The position numbers and the translations under genes were made by a program. The notes beneath the pieces are model-generated. The model searched no databases and was not told the DNA's origin. It saw nothing but the letters and a program-made list of their open reading frames with translations. From positions 37,005,711 through 37,069,710 of the forward strand of contig NC_134507.1 of the NCBI RefSeq assembly GCF_027942865.1: 64,000 nt of DNA, in the 5' to 3' direction. The first letter of the stretch is position 1; each line of letters begins with the position of its first letter. The DNA is from Odontesthes bonariensis (taxonomy: Eukaryota; Chordata; Actinopteri; Atheriniformes; Atherinopsidae). This document shows positions 9,416 to 64,000 of the stretch, one piece after another.

Positions 9416-9417
9416 AC

Positions 9418-24552: not shown

Positions 24553-24601
24553 CTGCTTTTAAGACATTTTAAATGTTTTAACCCTCATTTAGTCTTTTAA
24601 G

Positions 24602-28666: not shown

Positions 28667-29033
28667 TTCCCAACTCTTGTGAAATAACAAAACCAGCTGT
28701 ACATGGTGGTAGTTTCAGGGAGCCATTGTATTCTGACTTCTAAAATGGAACTATAATCTTTAGAAAAGACGCAGTTTATGAGCACCTCGTGGGATTGAGC
28801 TTCCCTGGTTTCTCTGTATGACCATGAACACCAAACTACACACAGAGAACAGAGGAGCTTGACAGACACACACTAAGTTATCTGAGAGTCCCATTTTCAG
28901 CTGCAGAGAACAATCACATCAGGGAAGTCGACGTGCAGGCTCAACATCAGCCTCTCAAGCCAACTCTCTGGTAAAATAGGGGCAACGTATGGTTCCAGCA
29001 CCTATGTAACACATATTTGTCACGGGGACTGTG

Positions 29034-29151: not shown

Positions 29152-29297
29152 ATTTTTTTCTCTTCTCTCTGCATGTCTTTTGTTGAAACATCTGTTTTGA
29201 CACAGATTTCTGAATAATATGCATCCTATTCTAATACAAAGATTTTATACTAGTCTCATGCCATTACTACATGGAACAATTTACTATTAATATCCTA

Positions 29298-29403
29298 TAG
29301 TTATACAGATTTATAACTACAGTAATGCGATCGTGTCAGCCTCTGTGCTTTTTTCCCCTCTATAACTTGTAAACTAAACAACTGGTTATACTATACAGGC
29401 AGG

Positions 29404-29408
<5 letters not shown>
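29298..29408. repeat. 110-bp sequence shared with 62,670-62,780
   Basis: TAGTTATACAGATTTATAAC through GGCAGGCTGTGTG, followed by a TG microsatellite, is repeated in the same plus-strand orientation at 62,670 with one visible base change (GCGATCG against GCAATCG). Here it precedes the first exon of the gene fragment. At 62,670 it lies inside an intron of a gene read from the other strand. Confidence 0.85.
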
Positions 29409-29453
<45 letters not shown>

Positions 29454-29457
29454 ACAG

Positions 29458-31405
29458 AAGCAAATGGATCCTCTGATGCCTGTGCTGTCCATCCTGGACA
29501 CAAGCTTTCCTAAGGACAGGCAGCAGTGTGTGCTTGGGATGACCAAGGAGGCCAAGGACGTCCTTCAGGCACATGCACGGGACCGTGAGACAGTGGACAG
29601 TAGGCTGAGAGACTCAGACAAGGCTTACAAAGAAGGTGAGAAGAGTGCATGCACAACCCTGTGCTTACAACTGCACTACTGTCTAGACATGATTACTTTA
29701 ATTTTGTTCCCCCTTATTTATCTGTCTACAGCTTTGAAGAAATGTCAGATCGTCACACCCTCTCCAACTGAGGCGCAAGTCCTGGGGCAGCTGGTGATGA
29801 CCTTTGGCCAGTACACCAGCAAGAGCTTCAAGTGGCTGGTCGAGAATGATGTCGGCTACTGTAAATAGTAAGTGATCATCATGTGAATAGTGTTATAAGT
29901 TAATAGTACTGTATCACTATTTTACATTACTATGCCATTTCAGCATCGTCGACCGCCACATGAAGGAGATGAGGCACCCTGAGAAGAGGAAGACCATCAA
30001 CGACGAGTGGCTGAAGGAGCAGCTGGTCAAGTACGCGCACCTCTTCACCACCGTCTCGTGCCACCTGGAGGTGAATGTGGACCGGGCCATCTATGGACAG
30101 GGGAGGTTCAAGTCGTTCACCTACCTGGAGATGTGGCAGTGGTACAGCCTGCACAAGAGGCTCCTGGCGGATCCTCAGGCTGGCAGCGACGCTGAGAGGA
30201 AGAGGGCGCAGGAGGCCTACACGTCGGTGACGCAGTGGCTCATCATGAAGGAGGATGACATCAATTCAAAGGCCCTGAAGAGGTTCAGAAAGTACATTCT
30301 GGACAAGGAGGTATGTGTGCAGGTGAACATGTGTATAAAGGAATAACATAACAAATGTATTCAGCAAAACTGAAATGTAATATTCCTCCTAATACCTCAG
30401 CAGGGTGTAGCCACTCCTTCCACCGCGTCTGCTTCCTCCAGCAAGCCCCCAGCAGCATCTGCAGCAGCAGCAGCAGCAGCACCACCACCCACCACCAGCA
30501 AGGCCCCTCCATCACCTCCTCCTCCTGCACCTCCCTCCATCACCAGCAAGGCTCGTCCATCAGTCACACCTACCTCCACCACAAAGCCCCCTTCAGCACC
30601 AGCAGCAGCAGCAGCATCCCCCACCTCCACCGCGAAGCCGAAGAAGGCCTCCTCCAAGTCGGCTGCCCCAACACCCCGTGCAGCTGTGCCTACCTCTTCA
30701 CCGGTACCCTCATTCTTTGCGCCCCGTCCATCAGCCACCACTGCCAGCTCAGCAGACCCCAGCTGGGAAGACGACGCTCTGCTTGTGGAGGCTCTGTCCA
30801 CCTACGAAACACAAGGTACATATTCATTTAACACAAGTTGTATTAGTTTACTGGCTAATAGCACACAGATCATGCATGTCACATCCAGTGGGCTGCTGTA
30901 ATGAAAAGCCTCATTCCACAGTGTGGATATACTATAATCAATGTGTTTTGGGTTTTTTTGTATTTACAGAGAGCCAGTCACAGGAGGCAGTTGGTGGTGA
31001 AGACGCCATCCTGTTTGAAGGATGGCACAAATCCTGGGAGGCTGAGGACAGCGGGCTGCCCGAGCAAGACATTAAGTGGCTGAAGGAGGATGAGGAGAGG
31101 GGGCTCTTTCTGAAGCCGCGGCCCTTCTCTGACATGTACGGCAGGAATAGGTGGAGGAAGGTCCTGAAGAGTGAAAAGATGTGGTTCCACCCTCCCGAGA
31201 TGCCCGGTGTGGTGGATGGCAGCACTGTCCCCGTGGCAGACAGTTTCTTCCGACACCGCGTCTTCTTCTGGAGGCCAGTTGGTGTGTGGCGCTACAGCGT
31301 CCGCTGCACCGAGCCCGGCTGTCCTGCCAAGGACAACCCGAAGGCTTTCCTGTACCGCTGTGGCTACGGCAACACGGTGAGGCCCATCTGTGACATCAAC
31401 GGCTG
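29458..31405 (+). pseudogene. 5' half of a Dada-type transposase gene (spliced)
   Basis: Five exons with clean GT-AG signals: 29,458-29,635 (MDPLMPVLSILDTSF), 29,732-29,867 (AQVLGQLVMTFGQYTSKSFK), 29,944-30,310 (IVDRHMKEMRHPEKRKTIND), about 30,404-30,815 (a Pro/Ser/Ala-rich linker) and 30,970-31,405. The last ends in a zinc-binding-like stretch (YSVRCTEPGCPAKDNP, then LYRCGYGNTVRPICDINGW) and a donor GTAAATG, with no later exon found before the U1 block. The exon at the right edge of the window begins at just the kind of place where this one stops (KAARGGESGPMGRWLAWDD), so I infer both come from one family and this copy lost its catalytic half. I infer no function beyond that. Alternative: a separate host multigene family with this N-terminal domain. 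Confidence 0.6.
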
Positions 31406-31409
31406 GTAA

Positions 31410-32612
31410 ATGACTGATACTGAGGCCCGGTGACTGATCTTGACTTGTCTGAACTTTTTTTTTCTCTTATCTTTGATGTCCCTATGTTGTTGTTTGTGTA
31501 TATAGTTTCCTGATTGCACTCCTACATGCACATGTATATAGTTCTCATTTGTATTGTTCACTTACACTTGATTTCTTGTTTGTTCCCATATCTGCTGTTG
31601 CACATGGCTCTCTCTCCTGTCTGCCCACTGCTCCTGGTCAGTCTGTCTGTCTCTGTCTCACACACACACACTCTCCCTCCACCTCCACCTCCACCTCACC
31701 CCCCCCCCCCCCCCTCTCTCTCTCTCTCTCTCCCCCTCACACACTTAATTTCAAATGTCTTGTCATGAAAAATGTGCACTATATATGTCTTAACTTTGTT
31801 TACTAAATGAGAATGCACTTGAATAAATGCACTTCAGCCCTTAAAGTGCCTTGAATCGCAGTAGCAGTGTGTTGTGTCATTTCCAAGTCAACACTTTCAA
31901 TGTTCTCCTTCAATCTATTCATTATAATGTAACCTACCAGTAATTATAATCATTCATGATATACCATCATCTGTAATAATAAACACATGAACAGCATACA
32001 ACTGTGAAGAAATAAAAAAAGTTTATTGAATTAATAGACAATGTTGAAGAGGTAACAGTGTGTCATTTCCCCCATAATCAATGTCTCCATCACCATGTAG
32101 GCCTCAAACCAGCGGGTCGACCAATGGGAAGACAAAAATAAGAGCTTTAGAGGTTTTGTTTACATTCACATCCAAATGTTTCTGAAAATAGCCACACCAA
32201 TTAGTCTCATGTCTTTTTTTAACCACCTTTTTCTTTTTTTCATACAATACCAAGTACCAGCTGGTGGGTGAAAATTAATAAATCACTCAAATGAAGTGAT
32301 CAATAGACAGCAATGCAAGCATTAAAACACGATTCAATGTCCAACACTCCCAATTAGACAAAACACTTGTATAAAACGATCATTTAAGTCGTATTTTGTA
32401 CATTTCCCTAGATTCACCCTGCCACAACACTTCACCACATGGCCTGGCAGCTTTTGACAGCTAATTGACCAATAGTACAGCATGCCCATGATTTCCCATC
32501 CCTCCCTCTCCATGGATTTGATTGACAAATCTTTTACCCAATAATATGCCTTATTTGTCCTAAAGTCTAAATCCAATTTTGCACTTTGTACGAGCTGAGG
32601 GCCATGCCAAGG
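31410..32612. other. non-coding, microsatellites, ends at U1 breakpoint
   Basis: Holds CA, CCTCCA, C and CT runs at 31,655-31,735 and an AATAAA at 31,822. On the minus strand at 32,040-32,155 a short open stretch (SSHWSTRWFEAYMVMETLIM) looks protein-like but was not identified. At about 32,612 the sequence switches abruptly to the inverted U1 3' flank. Confidence 0.45.
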
Positions 32613-32636: not shown

Positions 32637-32800
32637 CAGGGGAGAGCGCGAACGCAGTCCCCCACTACCAGAAATTATGCAGTCGAGATTCCCACATTTG
32701 GGGAATTCGCAAGGGTCAGTACAGCCGGTGTGCAATGGCTGAGCCTCGTCCTGGGTGAACCACCTTCTTGATCATGGTATCTCCCCTGCCAGGTAAGTAT
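32637..32800 (-). ncRNA. RNU1: U1 spliceosomal snRNA, inverted copy, intact
   Basis: Minus strand: ATACTTACCTGGCAGGGGAG (5' splice-site pairing region) through GACTGCGTTCGCGCTCTCCC to CTG, 164 nt, the vertebrate U1 length. The CACCG core at 32,856-32,860 is 60 bp upstream. Its downstream flank matches the main array for only some 25 bp before the breakpoint. Confidence 0.93.
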
Positions 32801-37491: not shown

Positions 37492-37517
37492 ATCGCTTCT
37501 CGGCTTTTTGGCTAAGA
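37492..37517 (+). pseudogene. U2 snRNA 5' fragment (nt 1-26), left flank of copy 3
   Basis: ATCGCTTCTCGGCTTTTTGG then CTAAGA. It lacks the normal upstream promoter spacer, since it is fused to U2 3' flank (GACTTCTAAA). The 5' junction to the LINE is as in copies 1 and 2. Confidence 0.88.
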
Positions 37518-40500: not shown

Positions 40501-41882
40501 TTCAAGACTTTTACGATACACGTGCACACTGGTGGGAAATGGTGAAGGAAAAGACCCAGACTTTCTTTAGACAGGCAGGTAGGAGAAAAAAGAATAGGGA
40601 AAACAGACGCATGATGGGACTGCAGAAGCGACTACAGCGCTATTTTAAATTAAACCAACAAGGGATGGATTTTAATGATGAAATTAAACAAGTGAAAACA
40701 GAGATGTCGATTTTAGCAGATATTAAAAGTAAGGGTGTCATTTTAAGAAGCAGGGAACGAGAAATAGAGGAAGGAGAGAAGTGCACAAGGTATTTTTTTA
40801 AGAAAATTGTGAATAAAGGGGGGGCCATTTTAAAGCTAACAAAAGAGAACGGGTGCACAGTTGATTCAATGGAAGAAATTAAACAAGCTGTTGAACAATT
40901 TTATCGTGAATTGTACGAACAAAAACCTGTTGAAATGGACACCATGACAGAAGTTTTAAATTTCACAGAAAAAACAGTAAAAGACAGTGTGCTTTTAACC
41001 CAAGATTTTACAATTTCAGAGTTAAATAAATGTTTTACAAATTTTAAGAAAGGGAAGTCCCCAGGACAAGATGGACTTCCCGTAGAATTTTATTTGACCT
41101 TTTGGGATATTTTAGCACCTGACTTGTTTACTGTTTTTATGGAATTTGAGCAACTTGACCGACTTCCTGACAGTTTTAGAGCAGGGATAGTGACTCTTCT
41201 TCACAAAAAAAAAGACAAGACTGACTTGAAGAATTGGAGACCGATTACACTTTTAAACTTTGACTGTAAACTTTTTAGTAAACTTTTAGCCTCACGTATG
41301 TCCTTGTTTTTAGAAGACCTGATTCACCCGGATCAAGCCTGTGCCATCCCGGGGAGGAAGATAACCGACAGCCTCGTACTGATCCGAGACACCATCTGTT
41401 ATGCGAGAGACAGAAACATTCGACTAGCAGTCCTAAATTTAGACTTTGAGAAAGCCTTTGATCGGGTCTCGCACCAGTACCTTTTCCAGGTACTGCAAAA
41501 AATGGGGTTCCCAGAAAGGTTTATAGCTTGGGTGGGTCTGCTGTACCGGGGCATTACCAGCAAATTCCTTGTTAACGGGCATCTGACAAAAGCAGTAAAC
41601 ATCCACTGCGGTGTCCGTCAGGGTTGTCCGTTATCTGCCCTCCTCTACATCATCTGTGTCGAACCACTGGCACAGAGCTTGAGAAGGGACCACCGAATCA
41701 ATGGGGTGAGAGTCCCGGGGTACTGGGGATTAAATTTGACAGGGAAGGAGGAGGGTCATCAAATTGGCCAGACGTGGTAGGGAAAGTCAAGCAAAGACTA
41801 GGATACTGGGGACTTAGAGGACTGACCATTGAAGGAAAGGTTTTAATCATCAAAGCTGTGATTTTACCTTTGCTTTTACTAA
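37518..41882 (+). mobile_element. Keno-like LINE, copy 3, eroded, with nested hAT element
   Basis: 5' UTR, ORF1 from about 37,867 with an early stop at 38,026 and a deletion of roughly 70 bp that removes two zinc knuckles, hAT insertion at 38,833-39,702, ORF1 end near 39,966. A deletion of about 370 bp then removes the ORF2 start. ORF2 runs from about 39,993 (LNIYGFNEKNDRYDLLEDL) through the RT fingers and [13 protein letters not shown]. Another deletion of about 230 bp near 41,718 removes the YMDD region. It ends at 41,882 where an LTR begins. Its 5' UTR is more diverged than in copies 1 and 2, so it is the oldest of the long copies. Confidence 0.88.
38833..39702 (+). mobile_element. hAT element remnant (GTF2IRD2-like) in Keno copy 3
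   Basis: 8-bp duplication TCCTATAG at 38,825-38,832 and 39,703-39,710. Imperfect ends CATATAGTGTCAAACTC and GAATTCGACACCCCTG-like. A plus-strand frame at 39,064 reads MSRKRNIDADALPSASIFLF, then GKYMFLLQGEETVCLLCCEA and VPVVKEYDLRPHSETKHGA. This is the BED-like N-terminus of hAT transposases related to GTF2IRD2 (VCLLCxxxVxVxKEYNLRRHxETKH), with QSQQNVF nearby in another frame. The catalytic region is gone. A deletion derivative about 870 bp long. Confidence 0.82.
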
Positions 41883-44800
41883 TGACACGACCTGGCTCAA
41901 AAGCCATATCAAAAAGGAGGAAGCACACGGTTTGTAAGTTATAAGGAAATCAAATTTATTTAAAACAATTCGAACTTAAGCTACGAATTCAACAAAAGTA
42001 AAACAATGGGATGTGGCAATCAGTCATCAGTAGTGTAGTGGTGTTATGGAGCATAAATGTGCGGCAAAGGTGTTGTATGGTGCGAAACATAACAAAAGGA
42101 TAAAGCAAACAATCCCAAAACACAATGCTGTTCTCACAAACCCAGCCAGGAACCAAAAGGGAAGAATTAACAAAATAAGGCGGCTTAAATCCACTCCCAC
42201 AGACGGCCAGGTGTACGAGCTGCCGCAATCACTGCTGCACACTCCAATCAGCTTCCTGGTCTGAGGGAGGAGACAAAGGCTGTGTTCGAAACCGCCTACT
42301 TCTCCTACTATTCCTACTAGTCATACTTTTTTAAGTTCCCGGATGTACACTAGATACATACTAGATTCGCCGAAATGTTGAGTATTCATCATGAGGTTAC
42401 TTGTCACACTCAAAATACCCAAGATGCAACGTAATGTGACCCATCGCCATTTGAACAGTCAAAATCCGTTAACGGGACGAGAGCAGTCAAAACGGCGAAA
42501 CCGGAAGTGCGTTGCTCACTGCGGCTAGCTTTTGTAGCGCCGAATTCCTGGGAACAAAATTGTAAATAGCCGGTATTTTGTCAGATTTTTAACACCTTGG
42601 GGGTCTAAATGACTACTTTCTCACCTGAAAATGTTTCAAATGTTGCTAAAGTTATATATTTACAGAGTTTATAGCTTAAGCGAAATCAGCTTTTCAGGCC
42701 GGCTGATTTCGGCTCGGGCAGGAGTGAAGTGCACTGTGTGTAAACGCTCTGCATACTGTCAGATCGATGAGTATGCCATTTTCAAGTATGTAGTAGGCGG
42801 TTTCGAACACAGCCAAAGAAAGAGGGAGGAGAGAGACATGCCCAGCACAAGCCCCAGGGGCTGTGACACCCTCCCCCTAAAAAGAGGTTCAATATAGGGA
42901 ACCGAAATATGTAAAAAACCTAGTAGGTACAACACACAACCAGCACTATTAAATGCTCAATGAAAAGTTATCAAAAAAAACAAATCAGAGAAAAAACACT
43001 TGCCCCATTAGCAGTTTAAAGTCCAACCACTGCCATCTGCCCCCAGCACACCAAACTCTTGCTCCTCAGCAACAGAGATTTGCCTAGGATTTCTGTGAGC
43101 ATTTAAGAGGAGAAAGACAGGAGGCAGGAACAGACACCGCAAGCGGAACTGGAAGGGGACATCAACCGATCAAAGTTGTCCTAACACACCAGGTCCCTCG
43201 CCAACCCATACTTCTAATGGGCCCGAGAGAGGGCATCCGCCACCACATTCTCTGATCCTTTTATGAATCGGATGTCCAACCCATAAGACTGCAACATCAG
43301 AGACCATCGTATCAGTCTCTGGTTTGGACACTGCAAGGAGTTCAAAAAGGTTAGTGGATTGTGATCCGTGTAGACCACCACGGGTGTAGTGCCTGAAACT
43401 ACATACACGTCAAAATGTTTCAAAGCCCATATCAAAGCTAGTGCCTCCTTTTCGATGATTGAATAATTTAGTTGGTAGGAGTTAAACTTTTTGGGGAAAA
43501 AAAACTCACTGGCTTATCAACACCCAGATCATCAGCTTGCAATAGAACAGCACCTGCACCCACGTGACTCGCATCTACCTGCAGTGAAAAAGGGCGGTCA
43601 AACCGTGGTGCCTCAAGAACAGGAGCTGTACATAACAAGGCTTTAATGTTCTCAAAAGCCTGTTGACATTCAGGGGTCCATATATACACTGCCTTTGCCT
43701 TCAAAAGGTTAGTGAGTGGCGATGTAACAGTGGAAAAATTGCGACAAAAACACCTGTAGTAACCCACTAATCCAAGAAACCGCAACAGTTCCTTTTTCGT
43801 GGTTGGTACCGGATAATTTTCAACCGCGCTCACTTTAGCAGCCACAGGACGGACGCACCCCTGACCCACAACTCGGCCAAGATAAGTCACTGTCGCCTTG
43901 GCAAACTCACATTTTGAGAGGTTCACGGTGAGACAGGCCTCAGCCAAGCGACCGAACAGCACCCTGATGCGCTCGACATGCTGACGCCAAGAGTCAGAAA
44001 ACACCACCACGTCATCCAAATAGACAGCGCAACCCTCCAGGTCCCCCAGAACACGAGTCATAAGGCGTTGAAATGTCGCTGGCGCATTTCTCAAGCCAAA
44101 AGGCATAACCTTGTAAGAAAACAAACTGTGCGGTGTCACAAATGCAGAAATTTCATGGGCCCGCTGAGTTAAAGGGACCTGTCAGTACCCTTTCAATATA
44201 TCAAACTTACTTACAAACTTAGCATGACCAACCTCATCTACACAATCTTCCATACGAGGAAGTGGGAACGAGTCAGGTCTGGTGACAGCATTAACTTTCC
44301 TGAAGTCAGTGCAAAACCTTGGTGTGCCGTCTGCTTTGGGTACCGTGATGCAAGGCGATGCCCAGCTTGAGGAGGATGGCTCAGCTATTCCATTCTCCAA
44401 CATATACTTAATTTCGGCATCCAGATACCTGCGTTTTTCAGCATTGACACGAAAAAAACGTTGACGAATAGGCTGAACATCTCCCACCTCAATATCGTGT
44501 TCAATAAGGAGGGTCTGAGTAGGCGTATCACCAAACAAACATGGAAAAGACCTAATCAACTCTGCCAACTCTGCCCTTTCTAACTCTGGCAGATGTTGCA
44601 ACAATGCCTCAAGGTTACAGAGAGCCTCAGAGTTTTTCAGCCGCCCATGTGTTAATGCTTGATCAACAGCTGGTAACCCATCCGCCTCCACCTCACTCAC
44701 CAACAAAGGTGTAGTGACTTCTGATGCTCTAGTTGCTAAACATGCTGGATGAGAATTCGCCGCGATAACCTGTGCACCATACCCAGGTGATTTTGACGCA

Positions 44801-45711
44801 CGCTCATAATATGGTTTTAACAGGTTCACATGACACAATTGGGTGGTTTTCCTGCGCTCTGGAGTCGAAATCAAATAATTTAAATCAGAAAGCTTCCTTA
44901 AAACTGTGTGTGGGCCATTAAATTTGGCTTGAAATGGCGAGCCTATGATGGGCAACAGCGCCAGTACTCGATCACCAGGACTGAAAACCCACCGTTCCGT
45001 ACGTCTATCATAGAGCTTTTTCATTTTTCCCTGCACATGCTCCATTTTCTCCCTGGCCAGTTCGCCAGCTGCATAAAGTCTACGCCGAAAACCATTCACA
45101 TAGTCTAACAGGTTCCGGGGAGGGTCCTCCCCCATCCACTGGTCCCTCAAAATGGCTAACGGACCTCGTACAGTATGGCCGAACACCAAGTCATTTGGGC
45201 TAAACCCTGTACTCTCTTGAACTACTTCCCTAGCCGCAAGCATTAACCAGGGCAAACCCTCCTCCCAGTCACCTTCCATTTGAATGCAATTTGAACGTAG
45301 CAACGACTTCAACGTTTGATGGAAACGTTCTAATGCTCCGTGACTTTGTGCATGATACGCAGATGCTTTGTTATGCTTAATGTTAAGCTGCTTCAACACT
45401 TGAGAGAAAAGGTGTGAGGAGAAATTCGAACCCTGGTCACTTTGAATGATTTTTGGAATGCCAAATATAGAGATGAATTGTGACAACACTCTCACCACCG
45501 ACCTAGCAGTGATGGTACGCAACGGGTATGCTGCTGGATAGCGAGTGGCTTGGCACATTACAGTGAGAAGAGAGATAGTACCGGATTTCAAGCGAGGGAG
45601 GGGGCCCAAACAGTCCACGATCACATGCTCAAAAGGTTGATTGACTGCTGGAATTGGTAATAGAGGAGCAGGTTTTAGAGTCTGATTGGGCTTACTTGTT
45701 AGTTGGCATGT
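41883..45711 (-). mobile_element. Gmr1-like Ty3/Gypsy LTR retrotransposon, fossil fragment
   Basis: One long terminal repeat at 41,883-42,868 (TG...CA ends) is followed by a purine tract on the element strand. Then, in element order, come an integrase region with its C-terminal part, reverse transcriptase and RNase H, all within 43,214-45,624. Integrase placed before RT is the hallmark of the Gmr1-like branch of Ty3/Gypsy; other Gypsy groups have RT first. The gag side and the second LTR are absent, because the element is cut at 45,711 against the U1 spacer. It is broken in several places. The LTR carries a later nested TIR element. It sits directly against Keno copy 3. Confidence 0.85.
42278..42814. 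mobile_element. non-autonomous TIR element nested in the Gypsy LTR
   Basis: Inverted termini GGCTGTGTTCGAAACCGCCT and AGGCGGTTTCGAACACAGCC, at least 22 bp perfect, flanked by AAA on both sides. 537 bp, no coding region. The superfamily is not certain: a 3-bp duplication would fit PIF/Harbinger. The interior from about 42,500 to 42,730 is nearly the same as in the hAT-type element at 23,529-24,216. Confidence 0.8.
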
Positions 45712-46200
45712 GTCCGGCCGAGTGAGGCACCTGGAAAAGAGGTGTCAGCCTCTGACAGTTCCAACTCATACTTACCTGGCAGGGGAGATACAATGATCAA
45801 GAAGGTGGTTCACCCAGGACTCAGCCATTGCATACCGGCTGTACTGACCCTTACGAATTCCCCAAATGTGGGAATCTCGACTGCATAATTTCTGGTAGTG
45901 GGGGACTGCGTTCGCGCTCTCCCCTGATTTGACTGTTTAAAGTGAATATCCCAGGGCAACTCTACCTTGGTTTTTGTCCTGGCGTTGCTGCTTTAATAAC
46001 GCCTTTCTATCTTTAAAACCCATGTTTTGCAAGGTTTGCTGAATGCTGCGGCAGGTCTGCACAGCTGATATGCAGCTGCGCAGTTGTCAGGTGATGTCAT
46101 ACAGTGCAGTCACCCCAGGCAGGTGGGCGTTGCCTTAGTGATGGCAACAACGGCAGCATTTCTACATTGGAGATATTAAGCCGTGAGGGTTTGCTTCAAC
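45712..46200 (+). repeat. first plus-strand U1 repeat unit
   Basis: U1 spacer from GTCCGGCCGAGTGAGGCACC, the U1 gene, and its downstream flank up to TTCAACTAAG, where a Gypsy-type element interrupts. The spacer resumes at 54,603, so this and the array beyond are one tract. Confidence 0.85.
45768..45926 (+). ncRNA. RNU1: U1 spliceosomal snRNA, variant copy
   Basis: 159 nt. Compared with the other copies it lacks five bases (GAGGC) in stem-loop II/III and has several changes (ATACAATGATC, GCATACCGG, CTTACGAAT). It is probably a decaying copy, although its 5' end and Sm region are intact. Its upstream spacer is cut just before the CACCG core, and its 3' flank reads ACTGTTTAAAGTGAATA, closer to the snRNA 3' box than in the array copies. 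Confidence 0.8.
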
Positions 46201-47842: not shown

Positions 47843-50800
47843 CCCTCCCCCTTCAAATGGTCTGTATGTCCCCATCAGACCATGGGAACGATACGAATCA
47901 TCAAACATGCAGTATTGGGGCTGACCCTGTCTTTGCTGACTGATACCCGTATGCCCTTGTGTTGAATAACTACCGGGCAATCTGAAGGTTTCCCCAATTC
48001 ATCATAGGTGAACCGCAGCACTAGCTTTGGCTGTCGCCTCCCTCTAGGGGCATACTGTCCTATACCTTCACAGTCAATAGACACAATGACACTGGCCGTG
48101 TCATTTGCAGAACCTTCTGACGGTTCTACGTGAGCTGGTTGCATATCCACATCACCATTATCTAATGCCAACCCTGCATCTGTCTCTATGATAGGAGGAT
48201 TCTCTTCGCCGCTATTATCAGCCCCACTACTCTCTGCAGTAAGCTGTGCTGACAGTGGGGAAATTGCTTCCAACACATCTTGACCTCTATTCTCCATACT
48301 TGCAGCCACTTCCATGGATGGTGGGATATCAGGATCTAAACTTACAGTGACTCTAGGAGAATAATAGTCCCTATCCTCATCAGAGGAACTGGATTCATGA
48401 TCAGTATGTTGGGTATGGTGACTGTTTCGTGTTCCCCAGTGTTTGCGCCGTGTAGCCACCCCCTTTGTGTGTGGCTCTGGCTCCTCTTTGTCATTATTCT
48501 TGGAATAGGGCAATCTTACCACCTCGCCAATGGGTAATAAATGATCCCTATGTAAGGTTTTCACTACCCCTGCTCCCATTTCAGGTTGTACCCGATAAAC
48601 AGGTAAGTTCGGCAACTTTTCAAGAACTACATAGGGCAGTGAACTCCATTTGTCTTTCAGCTTCTGTTAACCAGTTCCCCCTAATGCCCGCACAAGTACT
48701 CTGTCCCCCTTTTCAAGAGCCTGTTGGCGTACAGTTCGGTCATAAGCCCGTTTTTTCTTTTGATGGTTTTTAGTAGAGGCTTCCATGGCCAACTAGTATG
48801 CGTTCTTGAGGTCACCTCTCAAGTTGTCAACATACTTCTGGTGAGTGACTGCCTCCTCACTGTCAAACACTGCCCGAAAACACACATCTATGGGAAGGCG
48901 GGCCTCCCTCCCAAACATTAAGAAATAGGGGGAGTAACCAGTGGCATCATTTTGTGTGCAATTGTACGCATTAACAAGAGTGGATATTTGCTGACTCCCC
49001 CTTTGTTTCTTTCCAGAATCTAGAGTACCCAACATGGAGAGCAAAGTACGGTTAAACCTCTCAGGCTGAGGGTCTCCCTGAGGATGGTAAGGGGTCGTTC
49101 TAGACTTCCGTATACCCAACACTTTGAGCATCTCTTTGATTAGTCGGCTTTCAAAATCCCTCCCCTGATCGGAATGGAGCCGAGCAGGCAACCCACAGTT
49201 GACAAAAAACTTCTCAACCAGTACTTTTGCAACCGTAGGGGCCTTCTGATCCCGAGTGGGATAGGCTTGGGCGTATCTTGTGAAGTGGTCTGTCACTACT
49301 AAAACATTCGTGACTCCGCGGGAATCTGGCTCTATTGATAAAAAGTCAATGCAAACCAGCTCGAGTGGTCCACTACTGGTAAGCTGGTTTAATGGAGCGG
49401 CACGTCCAGGGAGAGTCTTCCTAACTACACATCTGCCACAGTTCTTTATGTAGTTGGCTATGTCATTTGCCATCTTGGGCCAGAAGAATCTCTCCCTCAT
49501 CAGTTCAATGACACGTTCAATGCCCAAGTGCCCTCCCTCATCATGTAGTGACTGTAGGGCAGGGACTCTCAACTGCTTGGGTAGCACGAACTGGTAAAAC
49601 TGTTTCCCTAATTTCCTGACAGTGTTTCGATATAGCATTTCCCTTCTTGATAATAAGACGTGGCCACTCCCTTTGTAGGGCAATGAGTTCTGGGGAATCT
49701 CGTGGGGAGGCAATTGGTCTACCAGCTAGTAGGGCTTGTTTCATTTTACTAATGGTGTCATCGGCATCCTGTGCCACACGCAGCTCACCTTAACTAAAAG
49801 GCTCCAAATTCCCTTCGCTGACTTGTATGGAGTGAAAGTACGCCTGCGGGACGCACTGGGGTGGGGCACCCAACTGATCAACGCATCTGGTTGCAGGGTC
49901 ACTGAGCACAGGGGTGTGAATGGGCTTACAGATGGCTTTGACCCCAGCAGGGGTAATACACCCGACCTGCTCAACTACATTTCGGGACAAAAGGTCAGCG
50001 TCTACATTTTTGCGCCCTGGTCTGTATTTTATGCAGAAATCATACACAGACAAGGCCGCCAACCACCTATGGCCACAGGAATTCTGCTTAGCACTAGTCA
50101 GGACGTAGGTTAATGGATTATTGTCCGTGCGTACAGTAAAGCGAAGGCCATAAAGGTAGTCCTCCTAAAGGTTATCCACTACGGCCCATTTTAGGGCTAG
50201 AAATTCAAGTTGATGAACTGGGTAGTTGCGTTCTGAAACACTGACCTTTCTGCTTGCAAATGCTACCGGTCGCAGGCCGTCTGGGTATTCTTGGTTGAGC
50301 ACAGCTCCCAGGCCATCGAAACTGGCATCCACATGCAGTATGTAAGGGCGGGTTGGATCAGCGAATGCTAACACTGGGGCCTGAATCAAGCAAGTCTTAA
50401 TTTTTTGGAATGACTCGGTACAGGCGGGAGTCCATCGTTCCCCAAATGGCTCAGCCTTGCTCAAGTAGTGTTTTCCCTGTTCGTTTTGTTTTGGTCATCC
50501 CCGTCTGGGGGGCTCATAACCTCTTGTTAGGTCAGTCAGGGGGCGCACAATTGCAGAGTAGTTGGCGATAAATCGTCTGTAATAACCACAAAACCCTAAA
50601 AATGACTGCAATGACTTCAGGTTTGTGGGTTGTGGCCACTGGGCCACCGCCTTAATCTTGTCTGCATCTGTGGAGACCCCATCTTCAGATACAATGTGCC
50701 CTACATACTTAACACAAGTTCGAAAGAACTGACACTTGTCAATGGATACTTTCAGCCCAAATTCCTCCAGGCGGTCCAAGACTTTAAGCAACCGCTCTTC

Positions 50801-53313
50801 GTGCTCTTCGATTGTGTGGCTGAACACAATTATGTCATCCAGGTACACTAAGCACCGCAACAAGTGCATATCTCTCACTGCTTTCTCCATCAAACGTTGG
50901 AACGTCGCAGGAGCGCCCATGATGCCCTGCGGCATTCGTTCGAATTGATCGAAACCCAGTGGACAGATAAAAGCGGTCTTCTCCATGTCCTCGTCACACA
51001 TAGGAATTTGGTAATAACCGCTTCTTAAATCCAAAACAGAAAACCACTTGCTCCCAGATAGACAGTCAAGGGCATCATCTATCCTAGGTACTGTGTACTG
51101 ATCTGGGATAGTGTGTGTGTTTAGGGTTCTGTAATCGATACACATGCGAATTTTGCCACTCTTTTTCCTTGCTACGACAATGGGCGATGCGTACGGGCTG
51201 CGTGATTCCTTGATTATTCCGGCGGCCAACAACTCCTGTAGATGTCGCCGTACATCATCGATATCTCCAGGAGCAATGCGTCTGGATCGTTCTCTAAAAG
51301 GTCGGGAGTCTGAAAGCCTAATGCGGTGCTCCACATCTTTAGCCAATCCTACATCCCATTCCTCCACAGAGAACACTTTAGTCCTTTCTGCTAACTTCTG
51401 AGCTAGTCTGTCCCCCCACTTCTGAGGTAACAGGGAGTCTCCGAAATCAAACAAAGCTGGATCAATGGCATCCTGGACGGATGGGGCCTGTGCAAGACCA
51501 GTCACCACGTCGGCTCTATGGATCTGCGCTATGACCGTCCCTTTGGGGATGGATTTTGTTTTCAGGGAGACGTTCTGTAGGAGAACTTTACAACGGTCTT
51601 TATTCAGGTCAGCTGGTAACAACACACAGGGAGGCAAGGCCACCCCTTGTGGTAAGGCACTTGAGCTATCCACAACCAGTATCCCAGGATTCCCTGCCCC
51701 GTCAAGGGTAGCTTTGCCGACAGCTACACAGGATTCCCCTGGCGTCAAAGTAAGTGGCCCTGGGCCCACCCACTTAACCTGCCCCACATGATCTGAAGTA
51801 AGACTCTTCAGTGTTTCAGGGTTTGGTGTCGGGAGACCAGCAGTCACTCTCCAGGCCATCGCAGAGTGGTGTCCCGCTGCTCTGCTATTTGTCACCAGTT
51901 CATGGTGAAATGCCCTTGCATTAGTACCTATAATCACTGAAACTTGGTCTGGTCCTTGGGGGTCAGGGCATACCAACGCCAGGACTGTCTGGGTAAGGAA
52001 ACGGCCTTCACCATCTTGGATCTGCATGGAGACTGCCACGTAACCCAGGTAAGGGTAGCTCCTGTCACTTAGGCCCCAGATGCATAACCTTGAAATAGGC
52101 TGGATGGTGAGATGAGACAAATGCTCACGGTACCTCTTCTCGAAAATAATGGTAACAGTAGACCCGCTATCCATCAAGGCAGTACATGCATGTCCCTCGA
52201 TCTTCACAGGGCTCAGAGACGGTTTTCCCACTAACCCGTCAGGAAGGAGGGAGGCTACTGGGGTTTCCACTTGGCTTTTCTTCACCGGGCAATTTGTATC
52301 AGCTGAGTCAGGGTTGTTCTGAGAGGAGTCTTCCCCTTTTTGTTTACGCAAGCTACGAATTAGTCGAGTGATGACTTTACCCAAATCTTCTTCAGCAGTG
52401 CACCGAGTGACTATATGTCCATCCTGCCCACAACGATAGCAGAAATACTCCCCTAATCCACTAGAAGGCTGAGCCATCCTGCTGTTAGCAGACACTGGTT
52501 TGGGATAAGTGTCACCCCCACCCTGAGGCTTCCATGCTGGGGATGCACTGTAAGGCACACTGCGGTGGTTCACAGTCATAATCTGCAGTTGTTGCTGAAG
52601 GTCAGCTACCTGTCTCTGTAGGGCCCTGACCTCACTGTCGTTGTCCATAGGATGACTGTGTGGGGCTACGGTAGTCTCAGTCTCCCTGCTAGGTGCTGTG
52701 TGTCGTGCTTCATTGGCTGTCAATTTAGCAACTACCACTCTGAGCTTGTCCAATTCTGCCCATAGCTTAGCTGCATCAGTGGAACTCAGCGGCTCATCCT
52801 CAGTTGTTTTAACTTGCCGTACGGTAGCTTTAGCATTCAGTGTTGTTGACTTCTGTCTCACTGACTGCTGGTCTTCCTCTTCACGTATCTCAGTTAGAAG
52901 TTGTAAGAATGAAGGGGGGTTGACTTTGCGTTCACGGAGACGTAGTTGTACTAACACAAGGTCTGACTCAATCGCACCCCGTAGAAGTTGTTCAATACGC
53001 ACCTGTCTCTTTGGGTAGCTGTCACCCCACCCCTAAGAACGACCTTAGTTAATGCATGTTCAATGCGACGCAAGAAATCCGACAACCTCTCTCCTTGATT
53101 TTGGCGCAGCGATCTGAATGCATAATACAAGTCTTCTCCTGATACAGAAGACCCAAAGGCACACTCTAAGGCCTCGAGATAATCCTTGGGTGTGGCGTTG
53201 GGGTCACTAGACCTAACTGCTTGTGCGATCTCTAATGCAGGGCCTTTTAAGCTCTCAATGATGCGCTTGCGTTTTTCCCCAGTAGAGCACTCACATTCGT
53301 CCACCATCAAGTG

Positions 53314-56995: not shown

Positions 56996-57159
56996 ATACT
57001 TACCTGGCAGGGGAGATACCATGATCAAGAAGGTGGTTCACCCAGGACGAGGCTCAGCCATTGCACACCGGCTGTACTGACCCTTGCGAATTCCCCAAAT
57101 GTGGGAATCTCGACTGCATAATTTCTGGTAGTGGGGGACTGCGTTCGCGCTCTCCCCTG
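56996..57159 (+). ncRNA. RNU1: U1 spliceosomal snRNA, array copy 4
   Basis: 164 nt and fully consensus for this array. Its downstream spacer lacks about 17 bp present in the other units. Confidence 0.94.
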
Positions 57160-57690: not shown

Positions 57691-57786
57691 ATACTTACCT
57701 GGCAGGGGAGATACCATGATCAAGAAGGTGGTTTACCCAGGACGAGGCTCAGCCATTGCACACCGGCTGTACTCACCCTTGCGAAT
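57691..57786 (+). pseudogene. U1 snRNA 5' fragment (nt 1-96), target of the DNA transposon
   Basis: Runs as normal U1 to CACCCTTGCGAAT, then changes abruptly to GGCGATCTGCTGAATAGGAG where the others read TCCCCAAATGTGGG. Part of TTGCGAAT should be the target-site duplication. The other half of this U1 must lie beyond the window. Confidence 0.9.
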
Positions 57787-58539
57787 GGCGATCTGCTGAA
57801 TAGGAGTGCAATTGACCCTGTGAGCCATTGGCTTAGAGTTCATGTAGGTGCAATTAAGAATTGTGATGTCACTGACCTCAAGAGTAATTTGCATATGCCT
57901 TCCCCCAGGTCTTGTGGACCAGGAAGGACCAGGAAGGACCAGGATATTACAGCACAAATGGCACACAATTTTATAGTTGCACCAAGCATAAGCCCCCTGC
58001 ATCCATTTGCGCACAAAAGTCCCCTCCTGGCATGCTTTTGCATGGTTTTGTCATGTCAATCAACAGAATAAAGTGTTAAATGCATTTATTGTCATACTTT
58101 TGCTATATCTCAAGTGTGTGTATGAACAAAAAGCTATTCAAAAATCATGCCATGTATTTTTTTTTGCTCCCTTTCTTTCAATAAAGTATTGTTGATTATC
58201 ACTTACTCCTATGCCTCTTATGCTACTTCCCTAGAAGCCATTTATTTATATGGCCCTTATTTCTGATAACTAGGCTCTGTTATTGTTGAATCAATTGACA
58301 GACACTCCACGACTCATTGTGACTGTAGCACTGACCATTTTTATTCAGTACCACAGCAAACAGCATCCAAGGGCAATGTTGACACCAGAGGGTGCAGTGC
58401 CGAGGAACAACAAAAGGTGCTGCGTTAAAGGGCACTCAGAGAGGGCACAGAGGACCATGAATTGCATGGCATTGTGGAGCAATACAAAATGTAATGGCAC
58501 AGTTTACAGAGCATAACAGAAGTGCAACTTTAAAGGGCA

Positions 58540-58730
58540 CAGTGCAGAGAACAACCCCACATGAGGTAAATGAAACAGGGCAACAGTGCAGAGAACAACC
58601 CCACATGAAGTAAATGAAACAGGGCAACAGTGCAGAGAACAACCCCACATAAAGTAAATGAAACAGGGCAACAGTGCAGAGAACAACCCCACATAAAGTG
58701 AATGAAATAGGGCAACAGTGCAGAGAACAA
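58540..58730. repeat. 44-bp tandem repeats, left block
   Basis: Unit CAGTGCAGAGAACAACCCCA followed by CATGAAGTAAATGAAACAGG and GCAA. Starts at 58,540, 58,584, 58,628, 58,672 and 58,716; the last is split by the hAT insertion and continues at 60,066. Confidence 0.9.
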
Positions 58731-60065
58731 CAGTGGCGGCTCCTCCATAGGGGCGATTTGTGCGACGCACTACCAAACACAGAGTTTTTTTTTTTTTTTT
58801 AATCTGGTTGCTAAGGTGGGACTGATCTGCTGCAGGCAAACTGGTTGTATATGTCATTGTCCAATCAGATTAAGGTCGCGCCTGGTGTTGCTACGCCCAT
58901 TTTGTGCGATTTCTGTCAGGGTCGAATTTGCACCAGGAAGCTCCCATTGACATGAATGGGACCTCGGTTTTTTTCAAAAATCCTGCTCCCAATGCATTTT
59001 CTATGAGGGTTTATGTGCTCGCACAAACGACGCACAACGTGCTTTCGTCATATGTCTGTTGCGCGGGACCATGAACTTTCTACTTGTTGTTGTAACATTG
59101 TGGTTTTCAATAAAGAAAAAAAAAAAAAAAAATTCTATGAAGAAGATGGCGAGTGTCGAGTGCAACAGTACAGTAGTGTTTCTGACAGAAGTACCCTTTA
59201 GTCGTCGTACTAATGCGGAGAAGGAAGTTTGGAAGAATTTTGCAGGATTTTCGGGCTCGCCTTGCGAGGCAAAGATGAAACCCAGGGCTCCACCAACCCT
59301 GCTATTTTTCCAGGTAGTATTTGATGTAGCTAAATAACTTACCCTTTTGTGCTCAGTCATTGACTTGTAATGATTTAAATCTTTTATATAATATTGACAA
59401 TGATAGCAGAATGTATAATGACACATTCATTGTTAATGGTGCAGTATTACATTTAAAAAAGAGAGAAATCTCACATAAGTAAGCTGCACTTATCCATGTT
59501 TGACAACTGGTTATGCTTTTCTAAGTCATATTTTCCAAAACTTCAATAAACACTTGACTTGGATTTATATGTTGTCATTTTAATTACATTCTTTAGAATG
59601 AAAATTGAATGAATCTTATCATTAAGAGCTTATTTACTTATTTACTTATTTCATAGAATCCTGGAACAATATGAGGAAAATAAATAAATAATGGTTAAGG
59701 TGTAATATTAACTGATTGGCAAATTATGCAAAAAATAACAAAACATTATTTAAAATTATTACAATAAATTATGCTACCTAGACAAATATACCTCAGTCCT
59801 ATGGACTTTTATGGTACTTATGGACATAACGGGGGAAATTGCAGTCACTTTGGTTATTTGGCAGACCAAATAACCCCTCGACTCTGCGTTGTGTTTATTT
59901 AAGGAAGACAAGGAGTTTCTGGACGATTGGACATTTTATTTCCTGTGTGGGAACATAACAGGTTTGCATCAGTGCAATCGGTTCAGCTTCGCACAGCTCA
60001 CTCTGATGCAGCTTTCACAGACTGGAAATTGCACTACCTAAAAAAAATGTCAGGAGCCGCCACTG
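58731..60065 (+). mobile_element. hAT-type element, 1.3 kb, in the Dada 3' region
   Basis: Termini CAGTGGCGGCTCCT and AGGAGCCGCCACTG with an 8-bp duplication GAGAACAA at 58,723-58,730 and 60,066-60,073. A short open frame at about 59,140-59,335 (ASVECNSTVVFLTEVPFSRR, then TNAEKEVWKNFAGFSG) resembles the region just before the TTF-type zinc finger in ZMYM-like hAT proteins, but only weakly. No DDE or dimerisation domain. It is an internally deleted copy; the middle is AT-rich. Confidence 0.85.
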
Positions 60066-60215
60066 GAGAACAACCCCACATTAAGTGAATGAAATAGGGC
60101 AACAGTGCAGAGAACAACCCCACATAAAGTAAATGAAATAGGGCAACAGTGCAGAGAACAACCCCACATGAAGTAAATGAAACAGGGCAACAGTGCAGAG
60201 AACAACACACAGAAC
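60066..60215. repeat. 44-bp tandem repeats, right block
   Basis: Continuation of the left block: about three and a half further units ending at GCAGAGAACAACACACAGAA. It lies just downstream of the transposase stop codon. Confidence 0.88.
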
Positions 60216-60258
60216 GTAGAACAGCAACTATATACACTATTTACAAGGGGCCGACCGT

Positions 60259-62776
60259 TCACTCCTCCAGTCCGTCCACAACGGACATGAAGTGTTCAAA
60301 GTTTTTGAAAACTATGTCTTCCAGTCCTTTGGAGGGTGAACGGTGGATCTCAGGGCAATATGTCTTTTTTTTTATATTTTTTGTGTCCCTGGATTTTGTG
60401 CCCGCAAACTTTGCAGGCCGGGAGACGCTGCACCTTCACGCCCAGCTCAGTGGGGGGGTCTGCCAGCTTTCTCTTGTACAGAGTCGATCGGGACCACGAC
60501 AACCCTGCCACAGCACTTTGTCCAGAGGGCGGCTTTACACCTGGCCTGATGGGCACAGACGCCGTGACCTGCGGGATGGAGGCCTGACCAGCAGGCTGTG
60601 TGGAGGAGGAGACGAGGGGCAGCAGAGGCGTGGTGATGGTGGACGGGGCAGAGCAGGAGACGAGGGGCAGCAGAGGCCTGGTGATGGTGGACGGGGCAGA
60701 GCAGGAGACGAGGGGCAGCAGAGGCGTGGTGATGGTGGACGGGGCAGAGCAGGAGACGAGGGGCAGCAGAGGCCTGGTGATGGTGGACGGGGCAGAGCAG
60801 GAGACGAGGGGCAGCAGAGGCCTGGTGATGGTGGACGGGGCAGAGCAGGAGACGAGGGGCAGCAGAGGCGTGGTGATGGTGGACGGGGCAGAGCAGGAGA
60901 CGAGGGGCAGCAGAGGCCTGGTGATGGTGGACGGGGCAGAGCAGGAGACGAGGGGCAGCACTGCAGTGGGCCTGGTGATGGTGGAGGTGGCGGGGATTCT
61001 CCTCACCGGCAGACGGAGCAGCTGTGGAGGAGGCTGCGGCGTCTCCAGCAGCAGGTTGGTCCGACCCTTCAACACCTTGGTGCCGGCTGTGCTGGGCGTG
61101 GGGACGTACTCCATCACGGGGTAGTCGGGTGGAGGGAGGACGTCCGGCTGGCGCGGTGCAGGAGGCAGCTGCTCACAAGACACAGACACGGCCTTTGAGG
61201 TCACAGCTGACTGCCTGGTGGCGTGGAGGTTGACCAGCCTCTCCTGCTGGCGGATGAAGTCTCTCACCGTCTTGGTGTTAATTTTGGGGAGAGGGATGCC
61301 CGCCTTGCACAGGACGGGGTCCTCTACCAAGACCCGGTGCTGGATCCTCTCATAGGCCTTGAGAATGTTGGCCTTCTCAGGGCTGGAGCGAGAGGCCTGT
61401 GGGCTGCGCAGCCACAGCAGCTTGACCAGCACGTACATCAGCCTGTTGTGCTGCGGGCTGATGTCCTGCTGAGCTGGCGCGTACCTCCTAGCCATCTTTA
61501 CCCGCTGGACCACGGCGGCGTCAGCCAGGTCGTCCCTCTTGGTCCGACAATACAGCGTGTTGCCCCAGTGGGTGCGGTAGAGCTGGTGGTACCGCTGTGG
61601 CTGTTTGTCATGCTCCTCCACCGCATTCCAGGCCTGAAGGACCCTGTTCCGCTCTGCTGTGCTGAGGAGCAGCTTCTGCTCTGTCAAGCCGACCTCCAGC
61701 AGCGCAGCACAGAAAGCCTCCAGCTTCTGGAACCCGGGCAGAGGACTGACACTGCAGACATCGTCCTGTAAAACGCACACGCACGGACACACACAGAGAA
61801 AAGTAGGTAAGTTTTAATGTATACGATGTCTTGTTTTTTTAGCGGGTCACATGTATCGCTGTATTCTCTTCTATCAGTATGTATTGGACTCACAAAGGCA
61901 GGAGGGTTGACCGAAGCAGTCTCGCTGCTGGTCAGTCTGATGTGGGGCTCCACATCAGTACGGTCCTCCTCGCTCTGGTACGCCTCGTCAGCGTCTGGGT
62001 CGACCTCCCCAGGCTGAACGACCTCCTCCTCCGGCTCAGGACCGTCGCTGACGATGCCCTCCAGTGAGAACGCCTCCCCCGTGCTTTGGCTGAAGAGGTA
62101 CTCCAGCCCGAGCAGCTCATCGGACCGGACATCAGCCGGGGCCCGGAAGTTGCGCTCCACTGGCTCGCCCAACAGCTGCTGGCAGCGGGAGTTCAGGCGG
62201 TCAATGAGCGGCGCAGAGTACACCCGGTGGTGCCGCCCTCCGCCCCCAAACACCGCGTCTGAGCTGCGGTCAGCGTTCCACCTGGCGATGCCACTTATCA
62301 GGTAAACCTGATAAGGCCGCGCCGCACAGTGGGGACCTGAACATCACAACAAACAGGTATTATCAGTACCTCAGTTATCATGTGATAAACGTGGTTTTTT
62401 TTTTGGTATTTTTCTCCCTTAGATTACCTGGAATCATGTGGGGCAAAGATTTATGGAACCCCTCCAGGCTGTTGCTCCCACGCAGGCCCTTATAATACGG
62501 GACGTCCACACCGTTGATGGTGGTGGTGCGGGCGACACGATACATGACCATGCCTGGGGGGTCCTGGATGCACTCCAGGTGTCGCTGCTGGGCTGCCCAC
62601 ATCTCATCAATGGCCGCTGTAAACACACACACACATGTTGAGCTGTAGTCATTTTGCATTTGCATTTTGTAGTTATACAGATTTATAACTACAGTAATGC
62701 AATCGTGTCAGCCTCTGTGCTTTTTTCCCCTCTATAACTTGTAAACTAAACAACTGGTTATACTATACAGGCAGGC

Positions 62777-62807
<31 letters not shown>

Positions 62808-64000
62808 TTTTTTTTCTTACCAGGGGACTTGAAGAGGCTAACGCCGCTCTCATCCAGCCCTGCTGGACCCTTCAGGTCCTCGATGAGGAGGTGGACCAGG
62901 CGAAACGTCTCCTGGGCCCCGAGGGTGACGCGCCGGACATGGTGCTTCAGCTGGTCCCGGGAGACGTACCGCCGGACCACGTCCTCGTCACTCACCACCT
63001 CCATGGTGGCCGGGTCTCTGGCCCTGATGGCAGCGATGAGGAGCTGGAGGTCCTCGCGGTTGTAGGCCAGCACCGCCCCGACCAGCGCGGATTTAAAGGG
63101 GCCGTATTTGGAGTGAGCCTCCGTTCTTAGAGCGGCGTCAAAGCGGTGGAGCCAGTGGAAAATGTCCAGCCTCACCACCATCCCCTCGTCCACCCAGGAC
63201 TGGAACAGGATCTCCACCGCGGTCGGACCCTGTGCTTTGCAGCAACCGCGGTCGATGTAGAGGATCTGGGGGACGGGCTGGTTTGCGAGGCGGAACCTCT
63301 CCATCACCCCACGACACATGGGCCCCAGCTTCTCCACCGACTCCTCGCAGGTGAGCACAAAGCTGACGATCTGGGAGAGCTCGTTGCCGATGCTGGTGAA
63401 CCACTCAGCCGAGCCCTTGCCCTCCCCAGACAGCTTCTTCACCACCTACAACAAAACAAACAAACAAATAGTTTAGCTTTGCATAATGTGGTGTTTCCCT
63501 GTGAGTACTTGTATGCAACACACTTTTGGCTAACTTGCCTTCTTCGTGGAGTCCATTTTCAGCACTTTGCCGAACGTGGACAGGATCTGGCTCCGGTAAT
63601 CCTGCACGTTGTCCGCCTCGGCCAGGAGGAAGGCGTGGCGCAGGAGCCGGGCGCAGGGAACCGCTCTCGGAGGGGGCGGTGCCTGGAACTCCCTGTGGCC
63701 CAGCGCAGAGACGATGCCTCTGGGTTCCACCAGGACCATGAGGAGTGTGGTGTAGAGGTCCTTCCTCTCGTGGTAGTCCTCCAGGTGGTTCTCCTGCACC
63801 TGCCGCCACACCTTGACCATCGTGTTACCCTCCGTTCTGTCACGCAGGAGGCGAATGATGGTCTTGTCCACCCCTCGCCTGGCAGTCAGTATGGCGGGAA
63901 ACCTGGCCCGATGTGCCTCGCTCAGCTGCCGGAGGATGGCGTCGTCCCACGCCAGCCACCGACCCATGGGTCCGCTCTCTCCACCTCTGGCAGCCTTGAG
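60259..64000 (-). CDS. Dada-type DDE transposase, catalytic and C-terminal exons (5' partial)
   Basis: Exons from right to left: 64,000-63,539 (MGRWLAWDDAILRQLSEAHR; open at the window edge), 63,445-62,821, 62,616-62,428, 62,336-61,894 and 61,765-60,259. Introns are 75-205 bp, all GT-AG except the first, which uses GC (AAG|GCAAGT). Frame and phase hold across every junction. Catalytic candidates: D in ILYIDRGCC near 63,252, D in RLDIFHWLHRF near 63,166 with DxxH, and E in SNSLEGFHKSLPH near 62,460. D...DxxH...E is shared by MuDR, hAT, P, Kolobok and Dada transposases. The last exon carries a Pro/Ser/Thr-rich 16-aa repeat (SAPSTITRPLLPLVSC, about eight copies) and a Cys motif CKVCGHKIQGHKKYKKK, ending DGLEE. 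I see no stop or frame break, so the copy may be intact. The DDE assignment is mine from motifs, not alignment. Confidence 0.8.
60606..60990. repeat. 48-bp coding minisatellite in the transposase last exon
   Basis: Unit GGGGCAGAGCAGGAGACGAG plus GGGCAGCAGAGGCSTGGTGA and TGGTGGAC, about eight copies, encoding 16 residues on the minus strand. Units alternate between Arg and Thr at one codon (GCCTGG or GCGTGG on the plus strand). Confidence 0.9.
62670..62780. repeat. 110-bp sequence shared with 29,298-29,408
   Basis: Lies in the 62,617-62,820 intron and is followed by a TG microsatellite (62,777-62,801) next to the splice donor. See the partner at 29,298. Confidence 0.85.

Follow-up and report, generated by a model that had tools for sequence, protein, structure and literature searches.

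The 64,000-nucleotide stretch of the genome of the fish Odontesthes bonariensis analysed here (hereafter the window; C2:37005711-37069710) has at its right edge a tandem array of U1 small nuclear RNA (snRNA) genes, one of which is interrupted by a 13,277-bp element that extends from window position 57787 to position 71063 of the extended sequence (extended coordinate = 63289 + coordinate in L003, the fetched right flank of the window). We consider it highly probable (about 0.9) that two Dada-U1 DNA transposons have fused to form this element within the U1 snRNA array of this fish. Bases 1-9755 belong to a family that we call F1 and contain a transposase gene, and the final 3.5 kb belong to a second family, F2. 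F1 is the autonomous type, and F2 is a non-autonomous type with the N-terminal half of a Dada gene alone. The anatomy and termini of the element, its target site, the insertion in multiple copies, and the single fusion junction are all visible in the assembled sequence.

Insertion sites and fusion junction

Full-length U1 genes occur at 54860, 55572, 56284, and 56996, and in the following copy U1 stops after nucleotide 96 and unrelated DNA begins, as had been claimed in an initial annotation made from the letters of the window: the match is 97.9% over nucleotides 1-96, the break lies at 57786/57787, and non-U1 DNA follows directly. That annotation also predicted a second transposon end to the right, followed by U1 from about nucleotide 90 with GCGAAT. 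Such an end was found on extending the contig: the element stops at L003:7774, beyond which come GCGAATTCCCC and the U1 3' half, U1 resuming at L003:7770, about 7 kb past the window edge, with a 100% match over nucleotides 90-164. The sequence TTGCGAAT, with which U1 ends before the element, occurs six times in the window (1.5 expected), always within U1 copies.

In the 945 Mb of genome searched, where our counts of element ends and junctions are lower bounds, the first 113 nucleotides of the element are present in 12 copies (c1, the window copy, to c12), ten on C2 (33.3-39.5 Mb) and two on C14. In nine of these 12 copies, including one with U1 nucleotides 44-96 alone and one with an extra G, the left end directly succeeds U1 that reaches TTGCGAAT and has the same orientation, and the U1/left-end junction pattern was recovered eight times at 0-1 mismatch, compared with none for a reversed-pattern control. 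The right end proper to F1 (..GACTTTTGCACTTCAGTTCGGAAATCTTC) gave eight full-length matches among 33 rows, the others being partial, and seven of the eight continue into U1 from nucleotide 90-91 in direct orientation. Target-site duplications (TSDs) consist of GCGAAT on both sides in c3, c6, and c11, GCGAAT on the left and GCGAGC on the right in c7 and c8, and GCGAAT plus G on the left and GCGAAC on the right in c4. At the right end of c5 (C2:36702096, L023/L024), TGCGAAT is followed by an inverted U1 5' half; U1 5' halves thus flank this element in a head-to-head arrangement, perhaps as the result of an inversion or a one-ended event. The U1 genes among those listed for the genome (42 scored of 11403 candidates) are located at C2 32-40 Mb and C14 8.1-9.1 Mb, where F1 is also found.

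Eight other F1 copies (c3-c9 and c11) diverge from the window copy after base 9755 and in most cases continue for about 290 bp more to a right end of their own; seven of them measure 8.3-9.5 kb, and c11, where internal sequence is missing, measures 4.0 kb. F2 has termini of its own as well. Its left end (GGCCCTCAGCGCGTACAAAGTGCAAAATC) follows U1 nucleotides 94-96 at the c6, c7, and c9 loci and lies in U1 spacer in c3, and its right end has five matches, including the window element, all of them followed by U1 from GCGAAT, GCGAGC, or GCGAAC, with only about 40 nucleotides of U1 in one case (L042). We found 20 F2 left ends versus five right ends, and where left and right ends can be paired, at C2:32.62, 32.79, and 45.35 Mb, their coordinates suggest that F2 is complete there, with lengths of about 4.9, 4.3, and 4.5 kb. 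A third family accounting for the last 814 bp of the element was rejected: truncated F2 copies share one breakpoint (see below), and the right end of the element reappears beside U1 at four further sites. The F1/F2 junction (AAATGCGGGACATGGTATATCATGAATG) was found once in the genome, at C2:37073230-37073257.

F1 and F2 both loaded U1 copies of one array, and a later deletion between F1-loaded and F2-loaded neighbours would have joined them at about 2 bp of shared sequence, giving the 13.3-kb composite. In c6, F1 and F2 are about 1.4 kb apart with a single U1 between them, and the same order is found in c9 over about 2.4 kb; more U1 copies separate the two families in c3 and c7. Loss of some 2.3 kb from a c6-like pair would yield the window structure, and we regard deletion between neighbouring F1- and F2-loaded U1 genes as the likeliest source of the fusion. 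With such an origin, the two GCGAAT copies flanking the composite would therefore derive from two insertions. The duplication predicted in the initial annotation would thus be present for a cause which that annotation did not foresee. Two site-specific elements could, in this way, become joined through array recombination and pass for one TSD-flanked insertion.

The single-copy nature of the junction counts against a fusion, so a mis-assembly in this repetitive array may be at its origin. F1 and F2 would then really be neighbours in adjacent U1 genes, as in c6 and c9. The array units, about 96-99% alike, and the presence of the F1-U1-F2 order elsewhere fit such an artefact, to which we nevertheless give a small chance, considering that the sequence is unbroken and without N. 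In addition, c1 and c2 have a nested element (see below) and U1 variants in common across the left 6.5 kb of the element, which makes its left part probably real; c2 itself stops short of the junction, with other DNA from element position 6495.

The N-terminal gene of F2

The F2 protein is shorter in the window element than in c3, c7, and c9, where it ends after ..DINGW. Over its N-terminal part it shares 61% identity with the F1 counterpart, and F2 therefore comes from a separate Dada-U1 lineage. No F2-type exon for the catalytic DDE (Asp-Asp-Glu) domain was present among those listed of the 153 matches from a search with exon 7 of the F1 transposase. A homologue on C14 (78%) was considered as a possible autonomous partner of F2; no N-terminal exons of it turned up within the 12 kb examined.

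Exon 3 of F2 was recovered in 23 copies with 97-100% identity and no stop in any of them, and an omega-like value (omega being dN/dS, the ratio of non-synonymous to synonymous substitution rates) of about 0.52 was obtained over exons 1-3 of 22 copies (p=0.022; c3, with exon 1 missing, was left out). These values would agree with a stand-alone N-terminal protein maintained as a trans-acting Dada regulator instead of a decaying remnant. By contrast, six of the 22 copies have stops, and divergence is about equal in coding (0.0136) and non-coding (0.0142) sequence, on which grounds we rejected this gene as a clear case of selection. Moreover, the separate F2 piece in the window (29198-32603), c6, and c9 are joined to 5S-unit sequence at one common point, and left ends outnumber right ends, so that amplification of the array can account for the copy number; many F2 copies have probably multiplied along with the array. 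A maintained regulator consequently appears improbable. We are just as sceptical about a two-part Dada-U1 system made of an autonomous F1 and a short F2 that has kept its two U1-specific ends, in which the N-terminal protein could act in trans. If it did exist, the F2 protein could be, for example, an end- or target-binding competitor, and F1/F2 fusions could carry both genes between functional ends.

One and the same breakpoint, at element position 12463, leads into 5S/U2 array sequence in c6, c9, and the second Dada piece of the window, a shortened F2 element whose right part is joined to 5S-unit sequence at that point (Table 1); c3 is cut earlier, at 11920. Sequence of F2 is also found inside the F1 part of the window element, where the intron separating exons 7 and 8 holds an additional stretch that F1 copies c3-c9 lack; it corresponds to the F2 5' region in inverted orientation and looks like a templated insertion.

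Transposase gene and state of the window copy

The transposase gene comprises ten coding exons on the minus strand, placed by open frame and splice signals and spanning 60350 to extended 66704; exons 10-7 and most of exon 6 are inside the window and the remaining exons past its edge. The spliced product of the window copy has 1636 residues, assuming that a weak exon-4 acceptor is used. A spliced gene with D, DxxH, and E motifs had been recognised in the initial annotation, and the DDE triad and DxxH are indeed present (D742, D811, D840xxH843, and E1006), together with two other features that it had listed, the 16-residue C-terminal repeats (60603-60960) and a GC-AG intron, which follows exon 6. 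Exon 6 was found in nine other copies, eight of which, all but the degraded c12, retain the GC donor, and the length of the 48-bp repeat stretch varies from copy to copy. The catalytic residues of the published Dada-U6_DR are D567, D635, and E811 (PMC3706591), so that D-D spacing is 69 here versus 68 and D-E spacing 195 versus 176. N-terminal to the DDE domain there is a CCCC finger, with C-x2-C at 589-592, cysteines 542/546/552 upstream, and an uncertain exact pairing; it is devoid of the C-x4-C seen in Dada-U6. The C-terminal finger of F1 reads C-x2-C-x6-H-x8-C in the longer-ended copies. Pfam searches detected DUF6729 (E=9.8e-43) over a stretch including the CCCC finger and a weak ExoX-like_C match in the N-terminal part, below its cut-off. 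A literature search found no paper naming the DUF6729 domain, exons 7-8 had no match in PDB at E up to 1, and NCBIfam returned no family for the one protein submitted.

Table 1. Features of the composite element and related sequences (window coordinates unless marked as extended or L003)
Feature	Position	Strand	Remarks
U1 snRNA gene, 5' part (nucleotides 1-96), interrupted by insertion	57691..57786	+	94/96 nucleotides (97.9%) identical to intact U1 56996-57159
GCGAAT target-site sequence, left end	57781..57786	+	Published Dada-U1 TSD; second copy at right end, L003:7775-7780
F1 part of chimeric Dada-U1 element	57787..64000, on to extended 67541 (L003:4252)	-	
F2 part of chimeric element	after extended 67541, to extended 71063 (L003:7774)		
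Sub-terminal GTGCAAT	57806..57812	+	19 bp inside left end; published for Dada-U1 (PMC3706591)
Nested hAT-like element	58731..60065	.	1335 bp; terminal inverted repeat CAGTGGCGGCTCCT; 8-bp duplication GAGAACAA
Coding exon 10	60350..61765	-	C-terminal; early end relative to copies retaining last Cys of C-terminal finger
48-bp tandem repeats	60603..60960	-	In exon 10; 16-residue units, 7.5 copies
Coding exon 9	61894..62336	-	
Coding exon 8	62428..62616	-	Carries catalytic E1006
Extra stretch of about 117 bp	62660..62776 (approximate)	+	Intron between exons 7 and 8; reverse-complement match to F2 5' region
Coding exon 7	62821..63445	-	Carries D811 and DxxH (840-843)
Coding exon 6	63539..64000, on to extended 64069	-	Carries D742; GC-AG intron next
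Second Dada piece, shortened F2 element	29198..32603	-	N-terminal gene on + strand; left end 33 bp from intact U1 32637-32800

The initial annotation, seeing no break in this gene within the window, took it as a possibly live or recently live copy, a view that is not supported here. A single intact and live Dada-U1 element of 13.3 kb would explain the U1 halves and GCGAAT at both outer ends, the sub-terminal boxes at the correct distance, and the mostly open window exons, but it is contradicted by the eight other F1 copies that have their own terminus about 290 bp past position 9755 or a counterpart of it. Since, in addition, the remaining 3.5 kb are F2, a family with separate termini on either side, the junction is present as a single match, and the gene is damaged by a missing exon-4 acceptor, a frame shift, and a nested insert, we consider such an element very improbable.

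In keeping with a chimera, the window element combines an F1 left end with an F2 right end. Its gene has lost the acceptor and start of exon 4, the acceptor being present in six other copies (c4-c9). The run that precedes the last Cys of the C-terminal finger was recovered in ten of the 12 copies, four of which (c4, c5, c7, and c9) hold, by its length, the frame to that Cys; this frame is lost in the window copy and in c2, c3, c6, c8, and c12 (reading compared for c1 and c7), and a homopolymer error of the assembly may lie behind the difference in run length. The nested hAT-like element is present only in c1 and c2 (98.9%) among the 12 copies examined. Because of the lost exon-4 acceptor, the out-of-frame last exon, and the hAT-like insert, the window copy is probably inactive. 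Breaks of other kinds occur in further F1 copies.

Judging from substitutions among its copies, F1 as a family is under purifying selection. Pairwise omega ranges from 0.12 to 0.74 (28 pairs, eight copies), and changes counted per site in the eight copies comprise 57 synonymous and 59 other ones, compared with an expectation of 83 non-synonymous changes out of 116 (p=2.5e-6). The dN/dS values exclude exons 4 and 10, both repetitive, and the selection counts leave out c10, c11, and c12 (degraded or missing exons) as well as c2 (exons 1-5 missing).

Target choice, Dada affiliation, and neighbouring elements

A GTGCAA/TTGCAC box is located 19 and 18 bp inside the F1 ends and 19 and 19 bp inside the F2 ends, and ATTGCAC in U1 ends 19 bp before GCGAAT. 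Terminal inverted repeats are absent, the two ends being dissimilar over their first 18 bp, and short sub-terminal inverted repeats are present. The F1 transposase would recognise the box 18-19 bp inside each transposon end and would equally recognise the same box (ATTGCAC) at its similar distance in U1; the U1 gene would thus be chosen because of its resemblance to a transposon end, in line with the published view. Insertion takes place after U1 nucleotide 96 and duplicates 6 bp, GCGAAT; most insertions have the same orientation. A box at equal distance in transposon ends and in U1 lends itself to a testable model of the way in which a DDE transposase locates a single fixed site, and the array provides naturally occupied as well as empty U1 sites, one nucleotide being used by both Dada families.

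Insertion at a fixed site in a multicopy small RNA gene (nine of the 12 left ends after U1 nucleotide 96 and seven of the eight F1 right ends), a TSD of 6-7 bp, and sub-terminal instead of terminal inverted repeats are characteristic of Dada, and the U1 target, the GCGAAT/GCGAAC duplication, and ATTGCAC at an end-like distance point to Dada-U1. The Dada-type identity and U1 targeting proposed in the initial annotation are supported accordingly, target position, TSD, boxes, D-D spacing, DxxH, and E all fitting published Dada-U1. The zebrafish families Dada-U1A_DR and Dada-U1B_DR (Kojima & Jurka 2013, PMC3706591) show the same U1 site, GCGAAT/GCGAAC duplication, single orientation, sub-terminal GTGCAAT/ATTGCAC at a U1-like distance, absence of terminal inverted repeats, spliced DDE-DxxH transposase, two families per genome, and tandem insertions. 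Unlike them, the two families are here fused, apparently by internal deletion, and one has the N-terminal half alone; the results and discussion of that paper make no mention of 48-bp coding repeats or a GC-AG intron for the zebrafish families. F2 also resembles Dada-U6N1_DR, likewise an internally deleted derivative at the target site of its family (PMC3706591), but its target is U1, and some of its copies still have an N-terminal reading frame spread over several exons. The Dada-U1 lineage is defined by its U1 target and recorded in five fish orders (Kojima 2022, PMC8869645). We found no fused Dada-U1 pair in the main texts of PMC3706591 and PMC8869645 (neither contains 'chimer', and the 2022 text is without 'intron'). 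Dada-U1 is thus known as a kind, and the element described here is a well-documented further example, with a fused pair.

The protein search with exon 7 yielded many matches with 29-53% identity (more than 100 listed rows, where one copy can give two rows) on other chromosomes, including C13, C16, C20, and C22. By this sequence similarity, the genome probably holds several other Dada lineages, one of them at a Dada-tA site. We examined 5 kb downstream of two distant homologues (L044 and L045). Beside the L045 match (38%, E=6.4e-35) there is GGGGAATTAGCTCAAATGGTAGAGCGCTCGCT, which we take to be the 5' half of a tRNA-Ala gene, followed by GCGCAA. The mark of Dada-tA is GCGCAA in place of TAGCAT in tRNA-Ala (PMC3706591), and the L045 reading frame ends with C-x2-C-x9-H-x8-C, the published finger spacing; the window element differs from this Dada-tA-like homologue in target and lineage.

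Several observations weigh against our interpretation. Three of the 12 left ends are not in U1, one of them with CTGCGAAC; the F1 finger has x6, in contrast with the published C-x2-C-x9-H-x8-C of zebrafish Dada-U6 (PMC3706591); the L044 flank contains no RNA-gene half within 5 kb downstream; and the assignment to Dada is an indirect one, through target, TSD, boxes, DDE/DxxH, and the homologue at a Dada-tA site. Furthermore, an F2 copy with U1 at its right end at C2:45.35 Mb falls outside the listed U1 places, and the list of U1 genes is therefore incomplete. Although DDE with DxxH or CxxH is common to hAT, MuDR, and Kolobok (PMC3706591), the probability that a host gene or a member of such another DDE superfamily sits in U1 by chance is minimal in view of the repeated insertion at one U1 nucleotide, the Dada-U1-like TSD and sub-terminal boxes, the lack of terminal inverted repeats, and the homologue at a Dada-tA site.

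Other mobile elements populate the window. A non-long-terminal-repeat retrotransposon is inserted in U2 at 14876-20687 and 22168-28669, with a broken copy near 37492-41780, in the arrangement U2 nucleotides 1-26, element, U2 nucleotides 38-191. It contains an open reading frame (ORF) with ZCCHC3-like RNA-binding and CCHC regions, an endonuclease ORF, and RVT_1; the first and second copies are 99% alike over 5 kb, and the first ORF of the second is broken. This element resembles the U2-targeting Keno (named in PMC3706591). Retroelement ORFs are also found on the minus strand at 43468-45744 (integrase core at 44182-45744) and 47875-53032 (RVT_1 at 50495-53032). Finally, minus-strand ORFs at 4805-7517, one of them with a PIF1-helicase match, may be what is left of a Helitron.

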